A stretch of DNA of 64,000 nt, from positions 62,001 to 126,000 of the forward strand of contig DATGHU010000005.1 of the NCBI GenBank assembly GCA_035307765.1. The letters run 5' to 3'. A program made the position numbers and the translations under genes. Shown in pieces: positions 21,294-56,760 of this stretch (its first letter is position 1; each line of letters starts with the position of its first letter). This DNA comes from a bacterium (GTDB taxonomy: Bacteria; Sysuimicrobiota; Sysuimicrobiia; Sysuimicrobiales; Segetimicrobiaceae). The notes beneath the pieces were generated by a model, which searched no databases, was not told where the DNA came from, and saw only the letters and a program-made list of their open reading frames with translations.

Positions 21294-21306
21294 CCCGGGG
21301 GGTCAC
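21290..21306. terminator. Inverted repeat spanning both stop codons of convergent genes
   Basis: GTGACC-CGGGG-GGTCAC is a perfect 6-bp stem with a 5-nt loop. It contains the TGA of the MFS gene (21291-21293) in one arm and the TGA of larC (complement of 21303-21305) in the other. It could act as a short bidirectional terminator, but there is no T tract on either side. Confidence 0.4.
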
Positions 21307-22535
21307 CGCGGCCGCGCGCGCTCCCCGAGCACGGCGGCCGCACGATGGGCCGCGGCGATCACCCATTTCACGGGGACACCGTGCTGCTGGGCGAGGGCGC
21401 GGCACACCTCAAACTCGGGGGTCATCGTCAGCACCCCCGACAGATCCTCGGCGACCTTGACGGCAACGGAACCGAACTCGGTTTCGACCTCGACCCGGCG
21501 GCGCCCGACCGAAAACCGGGTCACCTCGTAGACCCTGACCCCCAGCGTGGTCGTCTCGGCGAGGAGAATGCCGTAGAGCGCCCGCACCCGGTCGGGAATC
21601 GCGAGCACCCGCAGGAGATGTCCGGGGCGGCCTTTCTTCATCACGGCGGGGATCGTCATCACATCGAGCGCGCCGGCCGCGAGCAACCGCGCTTCGACGT
21701 GCGGGAAGAGCTGCGGGTTCATATCGTCGATGGACGTCTCCAGAACCGCGAGCCGCTCGACGCGGGCGTCGGCCGATCCGGCGTCGATCCGCTCCGCCTC
21801 GGACGGTATCGATGCGGCTTCCCCCAGCGCCTCCCCCACGAACAGCCGGAGAACGTTGGCCCTCGGCGGATCGGCCTTCCCGGCCCCGACGCCGATGCCC
21901 TCCAGCCGCATGGGGGGAAGGGGCCCCCACCCGCTGACGAGGGTCCCCAGCAACACCGCACCGGTGGGCGTGAGCAGTTCGCCCTCGACCTCGCCGGCAT
22001 ACACCGGCATCCCTTCGATCAGCACCGCGGTGGCGGGGGCCGGGACCGGGATGATGCCGTGGTCGGTCCGGACCCACCCGCGGCCGAGATTCACCGGGGA
22101 GGCGACGAGACGGTCCAGGGCGAGGGCGCGCACCCCCGCCAAGACCCCCACGACGTCCACCAGGGTGTCCAGGCCTCCCAACTCATGAAGGTGCACCTCG
22201 GCGATCGGCGTCGCGTGGACCCCCGCCTCGACCGCGGCCAGCCGTTCCAGCACCCGCGCGGCGTTGGTAGCGAGGGCGCGATCGATCCGGCTCTCGGCGA
22301 GCAGTCGGGCCAAAACGGGATAGGGCCGCGAGTGGGGCGGTCCGTCCTCCAGGACCTCGACGCGAGCGGCCGGAACGCCGCGGCGATCGACACGGCTGAT
22401 CGCGACCCGCACGGAAACGCCGAGGTCGGCGACGACATCGCGCAGCGCGGCCTCGGTCCAGCCGGCGCCCAGCAGCGCGCCGAGCAGCATGTCGCCGCTC
22501 GCCCCGCTCGCACAGTCAAGGTAGCCGATGCGCAT
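21303..22535 (-). CDS. larC: LarC, nickel insertion protein for the pincer cofactor
   Basis: 410 residues in one uninterrupted frame: N-terminal GYLDCASGASGDMLLGALL, an acidic/His-rich middle (HLHELGGLDTLVDVVG), and a C-terminal part with ETSIDDMNPQ and KKGRPGHLLRVL. LarC inserts nickel into the bis-thiolated pyridinium mononucleotide, in a CTP-dependent step, to give the nickel-pincer nucleotide used by lactate racemase-type enzymes. In Lactobacillus plantarum the gene is split and read through a programmed frameshift; here LarC1 and LarC2 are continuous. The start overlaps larB by 20 nt. Last gene of the lar operon. Confidence 0.96.
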   Translation of the reverse strand: MRIGYLDCASGASGDMLLGALLGAGWTEAALRDVVADLGVSVRVAISRVDRRGVPAARVEVLEDGPPHSRPYPVLARLLAESRIDRALATNAARVLERLAAVEAGVHATPIAEVHLHELGGLDTLVDVVGVLAGVRALALDRLVASPVNLGRGWVRTDHGIIPVPAPATAVLIEGMPVYAGEVEGELLTPTGAVLLGTLVSGWGPLPPMRLEGIGVGAGKADPPRANVLRLFVGEALGEAASIPSEAERIDAGSADARVERLAVLETSIDDMNPQLFPHVEARLLAAGALDVMTIPAVMKKGRPGHLLRVLAIPDRVRALYGILLAETTTLGVRVYEVTRFSVGRRRVEVETEFGSVAVKVAEDLSGVLTMTPEFEVCRALAQQHGVPVKWVIAAAHRAAAVLGERARPR

Positions 22536-23331
22536 CGGCGTCGCGGCTCACGGGGTGCCCGCCGTCGGCGGGCTGGGAGGCGCCCGCCGGGGTGGCATTG
22601 ATGACCGCGGCCAGATACCCGGCACCGTACCCGTTGTCGATGTTGACGACGGCGACCCCCGGCGCGCAGGCGTTGAGCATGGTCAACAACGGTGCCAGCC
22701 CGTTGAGGTGGACGCCGTACCCCACGCTGGTGGGAACCCCGATCACCGGGACGCGGGTGAGTCCCGCCACCACCGCGGGGAGCGCGCCGTCCATCCCCGC
22801 CACGACGACCAGCGCCCGCGCGCGTTCGAGCAACTCCCGCTGGGCCGCCAATCGGTGAAGGCCGGCCACGCCCACATCGTACGCGCGGATCACCGCCGCT
22901 CCCATCGCCTCGGCGGTCCATGCGGCCTCCTCCGCCACCCCGATATCCCCCGTCCCGGCGGTCAGGACCCCGACGCAGCCGGTGGGGTGCCCGGGCGGCG
23001 TCCCGACGACGACGAGCGACGCCTCTGGGACGTGGCGGGCGTCCGGGATCGCCTGGAGCACCCGGGCCGCGACCTCCGGAGCGGCTCGGGTCAGCAGGAC
23101 CGCGGCATCGGTCCGGCGCAGCGCCCGCGTGATGTCGACGATCTGCTCAAACGTTTTGCCGGGGCAGTAAACCGCCTCCGCCGCCCGGCGGCGGAGGGCG
23201 CGATGCGTGTCCACCTTCGCGAACCCCAGGTCGGCAAACGGCAGCCAGCGGAGCGCGTCGAGGGCGGCTTCGATGCTCGTGCGTCCCGCGCGCACGTCGC
23301 GCAGAAGGCGGCCGAGCGCGTCTTCGTTCAC
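22516..23331 (-). CDS. larB: LarB, pyridinium-3,5-biscarboxylic acid mononucleotide synthase
   Basis: 271 residues from a GTG at 23331 that overlaps the larE stop as GTGA. N-terminal helical stretch, then FAKVDTHRALRRRAAEAVYCPGK with the conserved Cys near residue 54, then a PurE/AIR-carboxylase-like domain (GTGDIGVAEEAAWTAE, VGVAGLHRL, VVVAGMDGALPAVV, IGVPTSVGYG). LarB carboxylates the pyridinium ring of nicotinic acid adenine dinucleotide and splits off AMP, giving the precursor that LarE thiolates. Second last of the operon. Confidence 0.96.
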   Translation of the reverse strand: MNEDALGRLLRDVRAGRTSIEAALDALRWLPFADLGFAKVDTHRALRRRAAEAVYCPGKTFEQIVDITRALRRTDAAVLLTRAAPEVAARVLQAIPDARHVPEASLVVVGTPPGHPTGCVGVLTAGTGDIGVAEEAAWTAEAMGAAVIRAYDVGVAGLHRLAAQRELLERARALVVVAGMDGALPAVVAGLTRVPVIGVPTSVGYGVHLNGLAPLLTMLNACAPGVAVVNIDNGYGAGYLAAVINATPAGASQPADGGHPVSRDADAHRLP

Positions 23332-24203
23332 GGGCGCGCCCCCCCCGCCTCCCGCTGCGCCCGCAGCGCCTCCGCGGTCAGGGCGCCCGACCGGAGGCCG
23401 CGCGGATCGACCGCGACCTCGCGGAACCCAAGTGCCCGGAGCGCGACCGTCACTTGGGGCGCCAGGGTGAGGAGCCGAGTCATCTCGGTCAGCGGCACCT
23501 CGATCCGGGCGACCTCGCCGTGGTGTCGAACCCGAACTTCGGGAAAGCCGAGCCCGTGGAGCACGCGCTCGCCCTCCTCGACCTGGCGAAGGGCCACCAG
23601 GGTCACCGGCATCCCGTGCGGCAGGCGGGAGGCGAGGCACGGCGACGCCGGCTTGTCCCAAATCTCCAGCCCCCTCCCGCGGGCGAGCCCGCGGATCTCC
23701 TCTTTGGTCAGTCCGGCCTCGACCAGGGGGGCCCGCACCGCGAACTCCGCCGCGGCCCGCATCCCGGGACGGTAGTCCCCGAGGTCGTCCGCGTTGGCCC
23801 CGTAGACCACCGCGGCGAAGCCGAGATCTCCGGCCAGGGCGCCGAGACGCGTGAAGAGTGCGTGCTTGCAGAAGTAGCAGCGCTGGACGTCGTTCCGCCG
23901 GTAGCGGGGGTCCTCGAACTCGTCCGTCTCGACGATGAGGTGGCGTACCCCGATCGCCGCCGCGATCCGCCGGGCCACCGTGAGCTCGTCGCGGGCGAGC
24001 GAGGGGGAGACGGCGGTCGCCCCGACACACCGGTTCCCCAGCACCTCCGCGGCCGCGGCGAGCAGGTACGCGCTGTCCACTCCTCCCGAGAACGCCACGA
24101 CCACCCCGGCGAAACCGCGCAGCGTCTCGTTCAGCCTCGCGACCTTGACCGCGAGCGGCTCGCGCGTCGGGCCGACGGGCTGGGGTGCCGCGCGCTCGAG
24201 CAT
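23328..24203 (-). CDS. larE: LarE, ATP-dependent sulfur insertase, probable Fe-S type
   Basis: 291 residues. PP-loop ATP pyrophosphatase motif SGGVDS (39-44) adenylates the substrate carboxylates. Three cysteines stand out: Cys110 and Cys113 (CYFC) and Cys190 (SPCLASR). The L. plantarum enzyme uses one sacrificial Cys equivalent to Cys190; homologues with the extra CxxC pair, such as the Thermotoga one, bind a [4Fe-4S] cluster that can carry the sulfur catalytically. This protein has the three-Cys arrangement, so I infer the cluster type. Sits 12 nt after the larA-like stop and overlaps larB by 4 nt. Confidence 0.94.
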   Translation of the reverse strand: MLERAAPQPVGPTREPLAVKVARLNETLRGFAGVVVAFSGGVDSAYLLAAAAEVLGNRCVGATAVSPSLARDELTVARRIAAAIGVRHLIVETDEFEDPRYRRNDVQRCYFCKHALFTRLGALAGDLGFAAVVYGANADDLGDYRPGMRAAAEFAVRAPLVEAGLTKEEIRGLARGRGLEIWDKPASPCLASRLPHGMPVTLVALRQVEEGERVLHGLGFPEVRVRHHGEVARIEVPLTEMTRLLTLAPQVTVALRALGFREVAVDPRGLRSGALTAEALRAQREAGGARP

Positions 24204-24215
24204 GCCGGCCTGGCC

Positions 24216-25544
24216 TTAGACCGTCCGCGCGCCCACGGCCGCAGCCGCGAGCGGGGAGACGAGCGTGCCGTCGGCGCTGAACCCCAGCGCAAACGGCTTC
24301 GAGGTGACCTTGGCGTGCGGGGCGAGATCGGGGACGAGGGCGGTTGAGACCGCCACCTCTCCCAAGGCCAGCGTGTTCCGAATGTAGACAAGGCGCTCGG
24401 TCCCCGGCGGGGTCGGCCGTTGGGTGGTCAGGAGCGCCGTCCAGATGGCATCCCGATCGGCGACCATGATCACCGGCAGACGCGAGCCCTCTGTGATCGC
24501 AGCGGTGATGCCGTTCATGTAGGTGGGCTCGAGATCGATCTTGTCCACTACCCGCCGCACGGTCAGGTCCGCCATCCCAATCCCGGTGGCGTTGCCGTGG
24601 GTCTCCTCGGTCAGATCGAGGACCACGATCCGCCTGATCGTGGGGCCGCCGGTGACGTGCGAGAGATACCGACCGGTGATGTTCGGGTCCATGCCGTCGC
24701 CGCTGATGTTCTTCCCGATCTCCTGGACAACGAGCACGTCGATGTCCCGCACCGGCAGGCTGGGCATGAGCTCGCGCGCGCGTGCCAGGAGCCCTGGTTC
24801 CCGCTCCACGAACGCCTCGCTCGGCACGACGGCGATCTCGACCGGGATATCGTAGGCATCCTCGACCACCGCGACGCCGAACACCAGCGGCGTCTTCTCG
24901 CGCACGATCGGCCAGGCCTCGAGCAGCCGCGGACCGAGGTCGTTCGGGCCGGTGGCGTGGATCGACATCGCCCCCCGCTGCTTCCCGGCACCGATGACCG
25001 ACATTTTGATCAGGCCGCTCTCAATCGGCCCACGGAACAGCGTGTGCGGCTTGACCCGGCCCACGACGACGGCGGCATCTGCGGCGAGGGCGTTCCGATC
25101 CCAAAAGACCCCGGACCCATCGCCGAGGCGGCCCAACTCGACGACCTCCATCCCCGAGACGATCGGCGCGCCGATCCGCGCCTCGGTCACCCCGAGCGCG
25201 GCGAGAACTTCCACCTGCCCCTCCGCCGTGGCCCCGCCGTGGCTGCCCATCGCCGGAAAGACGAAGGGCGCGGCGCCGTGGCGCTTCAACGCCGCGACCA
25301 CGGCGGCCGTGATCCGATCGATCTCCGCCACCCCCCGGCTGCCCACGGCGACGGCGACGCGACCGCCCTTCGGGATCCGGCGCACAATCTCCGGAGCATC
25401 GATCCGCCGGTGAATCTCGGCGTCCACGTCGCAGCGGCCGGGCGTGGGCCACCGCTGGCTCACCCGCACCATTTCCGGGAGCGGCACTTCGCGCGGCGCA
25501 CGGATGCCCCCCAAGGTCGTGGGCGCGATCCGATCCTGTGTCAT
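24216..25544 (-). CDS. LarA-like nickel-pincer-dependent racemase/epimerase (DUF2088)
   Basis: 442 residues from the ATG at 25544, with GGAGG 7 nt upstream. It has the DUF2088/lactate racemase N-terminal fold with cofactor and catalytic positions in the expected spacing: His102 in GSHGGA, Lys165 and His167 in VKPHTLFRG, Lys180 and His196 in SIHATG. These line up with the His108/His174/Lys184/His200 pattern of characterised LarA. It belongs to a divergent branch (VAVGSRGVAEID near the N-terminus), so lactate need not be the substrate; other LarA homologues act on other 2-hydroxyacids. Its cofactor makers LarE, LarB and LarC follow directly. Confidence 0.88.
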   Translation of the reverse strand: MTQDRIAPTTLGGIRAPREVPLPEMVRVSQRWPTPGRCDVDAEIHRRIDAPEIVRRIPKGGRVAVAVGSRGVAEIDRITAAVVAALKRHGAAPFVFPAMGSHGGATAEGQVEVLAALGVTEARIGAPIVSGMEVVELGRLGDGSGVFWDRNALAADAAVVVGRVKPHTLFRGPIESGLIKMSVIGAGKQRGAMSIHATGPNDLGPRLLEAWPIVREKTPLVFGVAVVEDAYDIPVEIAVVPSEAFVEREPGLLARARELMPSLPVRDIDVLVVQEIGKNISGDGMDPNITGRYLSHVTGGPTIRRIVVLDLTEETHGNATGIGMADLTVRRVVDKIDLEPTYMNGITAAITEGSRLPVIMVADRDAIWTALLTTQRPTPPGTERLVYIRNTLALGEVAVSTALVPDLAPHAKVTSKPFALGFSADGTLVSPLAAAAVGARTV

Positions 25545-25564
25545 CGCCATCCCTCCACCGTCGT

Positions 25565-26047
25565 TCACAGTTTGTAGCCGATCTTCCGGAGCAGATCGTG
25601 CCGCCAGGCCTTGCCCTCCTCGCCTTCGACCCCCAGCGGCGGCTGGCCGTCCACCACCCCCAGCACGCCCCGCCCATGCCCGGTGGCGGCCACGATCACC
25701 TCGACGGGGTTTGCCGTCGCGCAGTAGATCTGGCAGACCTCCGGCACCTGCCGCACGGCGCCCAGGACATTGACGGGGTAGGCGTTCCCCAGCATGATCA
25801 GGAAGGTGTGCCCGCACCCCACGGCCGCGGCGTTTCGGGCGGCCAGGTCGACGAGCGCGGAATCGGTCCCGGTCGTGCGAACGAGGCGCGCGCCGCTGGC
25901 CTCGCAGAACGCCAGCCCGAACCGGATGCCGGGAACCGCCCCCACCAGGGCCTCGTGCAGGTCCTCGACGGTCTTGATGAAGTGGGACTGGCCAAAGATC
26001 AGGTTGAGCCCGTCCGGGTTCTCCAGCGGCACCGCGTGCAGCTCCAT
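25565..26047 (-). CDS. Adenosine-specific kinase family protein (PF04008)
   Basis: 160 residues, a compact single-domain protein matching the PF04008 family: FGQSHFIKTVEDLHEAL near residue 20, LAFCEASGARLVR, GCGHTFLIMLGNAYP near 78, and CQIYCATANPVEVIVA near 104. It is known mainly from archaea and some thermophilic bacteria and has been described as an adenosine-specific kinase, though its role in cells is poorly defined. It precedes the larA-like gene by 20 nt and heads the lar operon. Because the LarB and LarE reactions release AMP, a link to adenosine nucleotide handling is possible; that is inference. Confidence 0.88.
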   Translation of the reverse strand: MELHAVPLENPDGLNLIFGQSHFIKTVEDLHEALVGAVPGIRFGLAFCEASGARLVRTTGTDSALVDLAARNAAAVGCGHTFLIMLGNAYPVNVLGAVRQVPEVCQIYCATANPVEVIVAATGHGRGVLGVVDGQPPLGVEGEEGKAWRHDLLRKIGYKL

Positions 26048-26178
26048 GCGCGACCCTCCGACTAGGGTTCTTCCACCGCGGCTTCCCGCACTCCTGGCCC
26101 CGCGAGGGCCGCCCTCCGCCCGCGGAGAAGTATCGGGCGTGCCGGCGGACGATCCCCCCGCGGCGCAAGAGGTGGTCG

Positions 26179-26871
26179 ATGCACCTGCTCAACGATCGGG
26201 ACGCCGAGACGGTACGGGCCCGGCTGGCCGCCCTCGCCCAGCCCGTCCGGCTCGTCTACTTCACCGAGGGCACCTCGGGACTGATCATCCCGGGTCGGGA
26301 GTGCCGGTACTGCGCCGAGACCCTCCGGCTGCTGGAGGACGTCGCCGGCTGTTCGGCGCAGGTCACCCTCGAGGTCCACGACCGCCTGACCGACCCCGAA
26401 CCCTTCGGACGCTACCGGATCGACCGGGTCCCCGGACTGGTCGTGCTGGGGGCGCAGGACTTCGGGATTCGCTACTACGGGCTCCCCGCGGGGTACGAGC
26501 TCGGGACCCTGCTGGGCATCATCGTGGATGTGGGACGCGGGGGCGCGGACCTCAGCGCGGACGCCCGGGGCGCCCTGGCCCAGCTTGCCGGTGACGTTCA
26601 CCTTCAGGTGTACGTCACCCCGACCTGACCGCACTGCCCGCGTGCAGCCAGGCTGGCTGCGGCTCTGGCGATTGAAAGCCCGCGCGTGCGGGCGGACATC
26701 ATCGAGGCGGCGGAGTTCCCCGATCTCGTCGAGCGGTACGCGGTGCGCGGCGTCCCGAAGACGATCTTGAACGACCGGCTCTTCATTGACGGCGCGGTTC
26801 CCGAGTCCGACCTCGTCGCCGCGGTCGGACAAGCGGGCGGCGATGGCGCCGGTGCGGAGGGAACGACATGA
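26179..26871 (+). CDS. Two-domain glutaredoxin-like disulfide oxidoreductase (PDO), probable selenoprotein with in-frame TGA
   Basis: Read straight through the TGA at 26626-26628 (codon 150) the frame gives 230 residues, the normal length of protein disulfide oxidoreductases built from two thioredoxin folds. Domain 1 has CRYC (42-45) and the cis-Pro motif VPGL near 83. Domain 2 begins VHLQVYVTPT, then the TGA, then PHC (151-153) and later GVPKT, the second cis-Pro. The TGA therefore stands exactly where the first Cys of the second CxxC should be, giving U-P-H-C. In known PDOs the C-terminal site is the reactive one. AGAGGTGG lies upstream of the ATG. The true stop overlaps the OsmC start as ATGA. 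A sequencing error or mutation is the alternative, but the downstream hairpin supports selenocysteine. Confidence 0.82.
26626..26660 (+). promoter_or_regulatory. Putative bacterial SECIS element following UGA codon 150
   Basis: After the TGA (26626-26628) come 15 nt, then a perfect 7-bp stem: GCAGCCA (26644-26650), loop GGC (26651-26653), TGGCTGC (26654-26660). The apical loop begins 22 nt after the UGA and its first two bases are G. This fits the published bacterial SECIS pattern (small loop with a G in the first two positions, about 16-37 nt from UGA). The hairpin is inside the coding region, as in all bacterial selenoprotein mRNAs. Confidence 0.65.
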
Positions 26872-27281
26872 ACGCCACGGTGCGCTGGACGTCGGGAATG
26901 GGATTCAGCGGGCTGGGGGCGGCGGGAGTCTCCATCGCCATGGACGCCCACCCGGAGCACGGGGGCCGGGACACCGGTCCGTCGCCGATGGAAACCGTGC
27001 TCCTGGCGCTGGGAGGATGCACCGGCATGGACGTGGTCAGCATCTTGCAGAAGATGCGGGCGCCGCTTTCGGGTCTCGAGATCCGGATCGTTGCCGAGCG
27101 GGCGGACGCTCACCCCAAGGTCTTCACGCGGATCGCGCTGGAGTACGTCTTCTCCGGTAAGGATCTCACCCCGGAGCAGGTGACCCGCGCCGTGGAACTC
27201 AGCCAGACCCGCTACTGCTCGGTTTCGGCGATGCTGCAGAAGGTGACGGAATTCACCTACACCTGGCGAATCGACGCCTGA
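26868..27281 (+). CDS. OsmC/Ohr family protein
   Basis: 137 residues with both redox cysteines of the OsmC fold: Cys in LALGGCTGMD (near residue 51) and Cys in TRYCSVSAM (near 117), plus the SPMETVLLALGG helix start. OsmC-type proteins reduce organic hydroperoxides through a Cys pair that needs a thiol reductant. The ATG overlaps the stop of the disulfide-oxidoreductase gene (ATGA), so the two are translationally coupled and may be a reductase-peroxidase pair; the pairing is inference. Confidence 0.92.
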   Translation: MNATVRWTSGMGFSGLGAAGVSIAMDAHPEHGGRDTGPSPMETVLLALGGCTGMDVVSILQKMRAPLSGLEIRIVAERADAHPKVFTRIALEYVFSGKDLTPEQVTRAVELSQTRYCSVSAMLQKVTEFTYTWRIDA

Positions 27282-55740: not shown

Positions 55741-55776
55741 AGAGGCTCGGCGGTCAAATAGCGGGAGGGACGGTGG

Positions 55777-56256
55777 GTGACGGCGGCGCGGAAACGGGCG
55801 GTGCGGCAAGAGCACTCCGGCAAGGCGCAGCCGACGGCATCCGGGAAGAGCCGTCCGGGGGCGGTGGCCCCTGCACCCGACTTCCGGTTGGAGATCCGCG
55901 ACACCCAGGCGGTTCGGTCCGGGCTCCTCAAGTGGTTCCCATACGAGTATGCGGGATCGCCCGCCACCGTCGAGATTACCACGGATGAGTTCACGGCGGT
56001 CTGCCCGTGGTCGGGGCTCCCCGACTTCGGCACGGTGACCGTCCGGTACCTCCCGCGCGCGCGGGTGTTGGAACTGCGCTCGTTCAAATACTACCTCCTC
56101 ACCTACCGCAACGTCGGGATCTATCAGGAGCACGCCGCGAACAGGATCCTCTCGGACCTCGTGCGCGTCACGGTGCCAAAGTGGTTGGAGTTGGAGCTGG
56201 ATTACCGCATCCGCGGGGGCGTGCACACGGTCGTCCGCGCGCGCTGGCCGACCTGA
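55777..56256 (+). CDS. queF: QueF, NADPH-dependent 7-cyano-7-deazaguanine (preQ0) reductase
   Basis: 159 residues from a GTG at 55777 (GGGAGGG upstream). Unimodular QueF: catalytic Cys76 (TAVCPWSG) and Asp83 (LPDFG), and the QueF signature ELRSFKYY (99-106, usual form E[S/L]K[S/A]xK[L/Y][Y/F/W]) that binds NADPH. In the following segment (YRNVGIYQEHAANRI) the substrate Glu118 is kept, but the residue before it is Gln rather than the His of the Bacillus enzyme. The first 35 residues are a basic, low-complexity extension. Reduces the nitrile preQ0 to the amine preQ1 in queuosine synthesis. Four nt before queT. Confidence 0.9.
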   Translation: MTAARKRAVRQEHSGKAQPTASGKSRPGAVAPAPDFRLEIRDTQAVRSGLLKWFPYEYAGSPATVEITTDEFTAVCPWSGLPDFGTVTVRYLPRARVLELRSFKYYLLTYRNVGIYQEHAANRILSDLVRVTVPKWLELELDYRIRGGVHTVVRARWPT

Positions 56257-56259
56257 CCC

Positions 56260-56760
56260 GTGGCGCCACGAACGGCCCGCATCGCAGAGATCGGCGTGGT
56301 GGGGGCAGCCTACGCGGCCCTCACCCTGCTCGTGGCCCCCGCGTCGTACGGCCCTCTACAGTTGCGCTTTGCTGAAATGCTGAAACCCCTGGTGATCTGG
56401 GAGCCCGCGTTGATCCCGGCGTTCGTCATCGGCAATTTCCTGAGCAACCTCCCGAGCCCATTCGTCGGGCCGTGGGAACTCCTCTGGATGCCGCTGGCTA
56501 ACCTCGTCGGTGGATGGGCCGGCTGGCGGGTCGGGCGGGTCAACGCCTACCTCGGCGCCACCGTGTACGCGGTCATCATCGGCGCCGCGGTCACGACGAT
56601 GCTCTCCGTGCTGCTCCGGGCGCCTTTCCGAGCGCTGATCACCCCGCTGATCGGAAGCGAGGTGATCCTCTTGATCGCCGGGGTCCCCATGATGCACCCC
56701 GTGCACGTCGCGCTCCAACGGCTGCGTGGGCGGACGGCGGGGAGCGCCGCGCCTCGCTAG
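56260..56760 (+). CDS. queT: QueT, ECF-type substrate-binding component for queuosine precursors
   Basis: 166 residues from a GTG at 56260. Six hydrophobic segments in a small integral membrane protein. The ARIAEIGVVGAAYAALTL start, the LQLRFAEMLKPLVI segment and IGNFLSNLPSPFVGPWELLW identify the QueT family. Takes up preQ0, preQ1 or queuine, working with a shared ECF energising module; the EcfT-A-A' genes at 59135-61760 may provide it, though they lie in an operon with their own EcfS. The 3-nt gap to queF shows synthesis and salvage are co-expressed. Confidence 0.92.
   Translation: MAPRTARIAEIGVVGAAYAALTLLVAPASYGPLQLRFAEMLKPLVIWEPALIPAFVIGNFLSNLPSPFVGPWELLWMPLANLVGGWAGWRVGRVNAYLGATVYAVIIGAAVTTMLSVLLRAPFRALITPLIGSEVILLIAGVPMMHPVHVALQRLRGRTAGSAAPR

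Follow-up and report, generated by a model that had tools for sequence, protein, structure and literature searches.

A two-domain protein disulfide oxidoreductase of the uncultured phylum Sysuimicrobiota with a strongly supported selenocysteine at its C-terminal active site

We analysed a 64-kb stretch of DNA (hereafter the window) from a soil bacterium of the phylum Sysuimicrobiota, with emphasis on a gene for a putative protein disulfide oxidoreductase (PDO) and its immediate surroundings (table 1). Our re-reading of positions 26179-26871 agrees with a preliminary description of the locus, in which a single frame of 230 codons contains just one interruption, a TGA at codon 150; TGA is also the normal terminator of this gene (codon 231). 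The internal TGA falls, as had been proposed, at the first Cys position of the second CxxC motif, giving U-P-H-C at residues 150-153, and the first site, CRYC at residues 42-45, is the ordinary one that had been reported. When the window was scanned for TGA codons with coding-like flanks on both sides, codon 150 was the sole site lying within a single recognisable protein family, and no in-frame TGA was seen inside any other family. The remaining candidates of the window appear to be the end of one gene followed by a next gene in the same frame, as checked for queF/queT (TGA 56254). There, at 55762-56757 on the plus strand, QueF, the TGA and a QueT transporter share a frame, and these are two adjacent genes rather than a read-through protein. 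Upstream of the PDO gene, a divergent set on the minus strand (21303-26047) resembles a nickel-pincer (lar) cluster, with larC-, larB-, larE- and larA-like frames recognised by eye and a small conserved protein at 25565-26047 (minus strand); larA and the small protein stay beside the PDO gene in both congeners of the window genome.

Table 1. Features of the Sec-PDO locus, in window coordinates
Feature	Position	Strand	Evidence
Shine-Dalgarno-like GAGGTGG, 3 nt upstream of ATG (short spacing), putative	26169..26175	+	Sequence; inferred
Sec-PDO gene, 230 codons + TGA stop	26179..26871	+	Sequence; TIGR02187 222.4 bits; AlphaFold2 pLDDT 93.3; 1a8l TM 0.87
CRYC, N-terminal active site, residues 42-45	26302..26313	+	Sequence; alignment
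Pro85, putative cis-Pro, N-terminal thioredoxin fold	26431..26433	+	Invariant in 32 sequences
In-frame TGA, codon 150, selenocysteine (strongly supported)	26626..26628	+	TGA in 21 phylum genomes; TGC/TGT in Cys-type copies read
U-P-H-C, C-terminal active site, residues 150-153, context TPT-U-PHC	26626..26637	+	Sequence; alignment
Bacterial SECIS-like hairpin	26643..26661	+	Stem 26643-26649 with 26655-26661; loop AGGCU 26650-26654
Pro193, putative cis-Pro, C-terminal thioredoxin fold	26755..26757	+	Invariant in 32 sequences
ATGA overlap, OsmC-like start over PDO stop codon	26868..26871	+	Sequence; kept in both congeners
OsmC-like protein, 137 aa, Cys51 + Cys117	26868..27281	+	Pfam OsmC 67 bits; adjoins PDO in L027, L028, L031

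The assignment to the two-domain PDO family, already made in the preliminary description, is borne out by both sequence and predicted structure. With the TGA translated as Cys, the product reaches 222.4 bits for TIGR02187 (NCBIfam, PDO; cut-off 185) over residues 6-218, and its Pfam Thioredoxin_3 score is 74 bits. Among proteins of solved structure, the PDOs of Pyrococcus horikoshii (E 3e-35) and Pyrococcus furiosus (E 1e-34) are nearest in sequence. The AlphaFold2 model, with Cys replacing Sec150 (mean pLDDT 93.3, pTM 0.90), contains two tandem thioredoxin folds, each with a CxxC-type motif, and its best solved matches, at TM ~0.87, are PDOs of Aquifex and Pyrococcus (1a8l, 1j08, 2ayt). The P. 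furiosus, P. horikoshii and Aquifex enzymes likewise display two thioredoxin folds, two active sites and cis-Pro residues; the second site of the Pyrococcus PDOs is Cys-Pro-Tyr-Cys, whereas that of the window protein reads Sec-Pro-His-Cys. Both cis-Pro motifs had been noted as fitting the family, and the candidate residues, Pro85 and Pro193, are invariant across 32 aligned relatives.

The same genome encodes the selenocysteine machinery. A tRNA-Sec (72.1 bits; ARAGORN call SeC, anticodon TCA) shares a contig with selB (333 bits) and selA (501.5 bits), the latter cut by the contig end, with its N-terminus beyond that end. The selD gene (393 bits; L017, G000:C34:292205-293125) contains one in-frame TGA, in the context VACAG-U-ASKL, at what we take to be the position of the catalytic Cys/Sec of SelD; selD is thus a selenoprotein gene itself. 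Hence all four genes for which a search had been advised (selA, selB, selC and selD) occur in the genome, selA being cut off by the contig end. UGA is apparently read as selenocysteine in this organism, yet it serves as an ordinary stop too, because codon 231 of the PDO gene is TGA.

In a whole-genome search, 21 of 43 genomes of the phylum, the window genome included, proved to have a PDO whose corresponding codon is TGA, a recurrence well beyond chance. These span five families and retain the half downstream of the codon. Copies without an internal stop number 11 (one partial) and occur in 10 of the 43 genomes; codon 150 is TGC or TGT in all nine that were read, so that homologues aligned at this column, as the preliminary description had suggested doing, carry either Sec or Cys. 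Two genomes (G014 and G025) each possess a Sec-type copy plus a full-length stop-free copy. On the tree, changes between Cys and Sec at the site number 2 among 32 rows and 9 among 72 rows. A tRNA-Sec above 60 bits was found in 17 of the 21 Sec-type genomes, the other four being drafts that are 69-93% complete. A wider sample of 386 genomes added 13 genomes of other phyla with TGA-bearing PDOs, and in each of these the TGA occupies the C-terminal site. The nearest public relatives are two separately assembled genomes of the same genus (G030 and G031; VBAK01000101 and VBAN01000227), both with TGA and with PDOs 78-79% identical to that of the window. NCBI taxonomy assigns them to Segetimicrobium in Candidatus Sysuimicrobiota, and the window probably belongs to this genus or to a close neighbour of it. 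Comparing the window gene against both congeners yields a Ka/Ks of 0.14 after the TGA versus 0.23-0.24 before it; judged by these substitutions, purifying selection acts on the half after the codon, which presents no sign of the decay in close relatives that had been named as evidence against a selenocysteine. All PDOs of family f5 are Cys-type, and a strong tRNA-Sec is found in only some of its genomes (G034, G038 and G039 vs G035, G036 and G040), a pattern that hints at recent loss of the selenocysteine trait in part of the family.

Downstream of the UGA lies a candidate bacterial SECIS element. In the codon alignment of 20 Sec rows, a 7-bp stem (+18 to +24 paired with +30 to +36) is common to all, 21 nt after the UGA, with the loop AGGCU in most. 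A published bSECIS model specifies an upper stem of 4-16 bp, a loop of 3-9 nt, a distance of 16-37 nt from the UGA, and a G at position 1 or 2 of the loop, with flanking bases that can pair (PMC13188914); the hairpin fits these constraints (7 bp, AGGCU loop, 21 nt). Stem cells are paired in 91.4% of cases over the 20 rows vs 86.2% in shuffles (0/500 as high), and double-sided stem changes number 7 vs 2.1 (again 0/500 as high), with controls that correct for kinship only partly. The clearest compensation is A21-U33 in the window's genus vs G21-C33 elsewhere, at the third positions of two alanine codons. The residue encoded within the loop, Arg158, is specified by AGG in 19/21 Sec rows and 0/12 Cys rows, AGG making up 4.6% of the Arg codons in the remainder of these genes; similarly, stem pairs 19-35 and 20-34 are formed in 0/12 Cys rows. 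The outer stem pairs are broken in four rows of families f1 and f3. Folded by itself, the segment from the window has a minimum-energy structure that differs from the proposed hairpin and is no more stable than shuffles (z -0.25 to -0.46); the sequences of many relatives do fold as proposed. On the aligned codons, then, the hairpin is kept among Sec forms, with synonymous changes that compensate one another, and is missing from Cys forms, its support as an RNA element being comparative.

The end of the read-through frame is itself informative. Were translation to stop at codon 150, about 240 nt would remain untranslated before the OsmC-like start, an arrangement that suggests read-through. OsmC also follows the Cys-type PDO of locus L031, and the OsmC-like protein is probably a co-translated partner of the PDO. 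Its Cys51 and Cys117 are presumably the two cysteines seen in OsmC/Ohr peroxidases, and it is plausible that the PDO reduces it, in which case it would act as client or partner.

Taken together, the machinery, the TGA shared by 21 genomes, the conserved hairpin and the selection acting downstream argue that codon 150 almost certainly specifies selenocysteine, the reading first advanced in the preliminary description. Other accounts of the TGA were considered. ORF calling yields a 149-codon protein whose last residues are TPT, as expected if the TGA were a true stop and the PDO truncated or decaying, its second half being pseudogenic or a protein with a start of its own; but truncation would sever the domain immediately ahead of the nucleophile, the downstream half is retained wherever the five families share the TGA, purifying selection is greater after the codon than before it, and the overlap with the OsmC-like gene lies where the read-through frame ends, all of which make a true stop extremely improbable. 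Single-base errors do occur in metagenome assemblies, and the codon might in reality be TGC or TGT; yet TGA is found in both separately assembled congeners plus 18 further genomes, and the hairpin accompanies TGA, not TGC/TGT, which leaves a sequencing or assembly error with a negligible probability. Equally negligible is a reassigned code in which TGA generally denotes another residue (e.g., Trp or Cys): although TGA does occur in frame, the same gene ends at TGA, within the overlapping ATGA start, the genome possesses tRNA-Sec, selA and selB, and the other protein families of the window lack in-frame TGA as far as the scan saw.

A further alternative concerns the family rather than the codon, namely that the protein is not a PDO but the N-terminal domain of AhpF in detached form. 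AhpF models do give matches (TIGR03143, 74.5 bits; TIGR03140, 67 bits), the N-terminal domain of AhpF (1zyn, 5h29, 6il7) has tandem thioredoxin folds in common with our model (TM 0.77-0.82), and selenoprotein catalogues name the Sec family of TIGR02187 after this very domain. Nonetheless, the AhpF scores fall far under their own cut-offs (687.65 for TIGR03143 and 502.9 for TIGR03140), whereas TIGR02187 passes its own, and PDOs are the nearest solved folds to the predicted structure. Unlike AhpF, the PDO has no flavoprotein module; its frame contains no flavin domain, and the next gene is OsmC-like. We thus consider a detached AhpF domain very unlikely. Overall, we are highly confident that the whole is best explained by a two-fold PDO with a Sec-Pro-His-Cys site, produced by hairpin-directed UGA read-through to 26871, the insertion of Sec and its chemistry being inferred.

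Selenocysteine in this family has precedents. The preliminary description knew of no described Sec form of the two-domain family; such members have in fact been catalogued since 2006 (PMC1794560, PMC9312934, PMC13188914). In the tables of the 2006 bacterial selenoproteome they figure as a "homolog of AhpF, amino-terminal domain" in Carboxydothermus and Symbiobacterium (PMC1794560), and later catalogues tie the AhpF-N homolog to TIGR02187, a UxxC motif and ABB15282.1 (PMC9312934, PMC13188914), that is, to the same model and the same motif as the window protein. Grx-like domain protein is an alternative name, with Carboxydothermus hydrogenoformans (ABB15282.1) and Symbiobacterium thermophilum as species, and a Sec form of the TIGR02187 family is also reported in Asgard archaea (PMC13188914). 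The NCBIfam name of TIGR02187 is itself PDO_seleno_TRX, and we took ABB15282.1 as a full two-domain protein on the strength of the family model. Within the catalogue sections available, Sysuimicrobiota are not named among the lineages with Sec forms, and we found no mention of a loss of the first CxxC in them (PMC1794560, PMC9312934, PMC13188914). A literature search for Sysuimicrobiota or CSP1-3 together with selenoproteins found no paper joining both among those listed. What looks new is the spread of the Sec-PDO in Sysuimicrobiota and a single-site clade of 14 Sec forms.

This sister clade (support 98/92) comprises Sec-type PDOs of families f2, f3 and f4 (L029, L030, L032-L039, L041-L043 and L045) in which the residues aligned to 42-45 no longer form a CxxC, while the Sec site, both folds and the cis-Pro residues are retained. 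The first CxxC is also missing in L086 and in the divergent L091, both outside the clade, and in 0/40 Cys-type rows. With two changes on the tree behind it, the association of N-site loss with the Sec form is suggestive. The N-terminal domain of AhpF has one redox site, and the single-site clade is similar in that respect. We lean slightly towards the view that in these 14 genomes a PDO with a C-terminal Sec became a single-site selenoenzyme, probably trading isomerase activity for a dedicated selenium-based reductase, with the window protein representing the state before the loss.

How the two-site protein is made and works can be outlined as a proposal. The ribosome would encounter the SECIS hairpin beyond the UGA, and SelB bound to it would bring to that codon the Sec-tRNA-Sec formed by SelA with selenophosphate from SelD; translation would then run on through the second domain and end at 26871, overlapping the OsmC-like start. 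With Sec as its first residue, the site is expected to be more nucleophilic at neutral pH. Sec150 would attack the disulfides of substrates, and the resulting selenyl-sulfide would be resolved by Cys153, with electrons supplied by a thioredoxin-reductase-like enzyme, perhaps via the N-terminal CRYC. Mutagenesis of a Sulfolobus PDO agrees with the earlier claim that the C-terminal site is the reactive one: this site is fundamental for thiol transfer, and isomerase activity needs both (PMC7465337). The Sulfolobus PDO receives electrons from thioredoxin reductase and with them recycles peroxiredoxins (PMC7465337; PMC7278568). We propose a reductase role for the window protein, which, having two sites, may also act as an isomerase.

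PDOs are best known from thermophiles. Our findings extend the known range of the Sec-PDO family to a deep, uncultured phylum, here in a soil bacterium, with unusually complete evidence: machinery, a conserved UGA, a covarying SECIS and Cys paralogues. Given that ORF calling ends the gene after codon 149, annotations may miss its catalytic half. The occurrence of Sec and Cys forms, and of one- and two-site forms, within a single phylum makes a natural series in which to examine the benefit of selenium at the reactive site.
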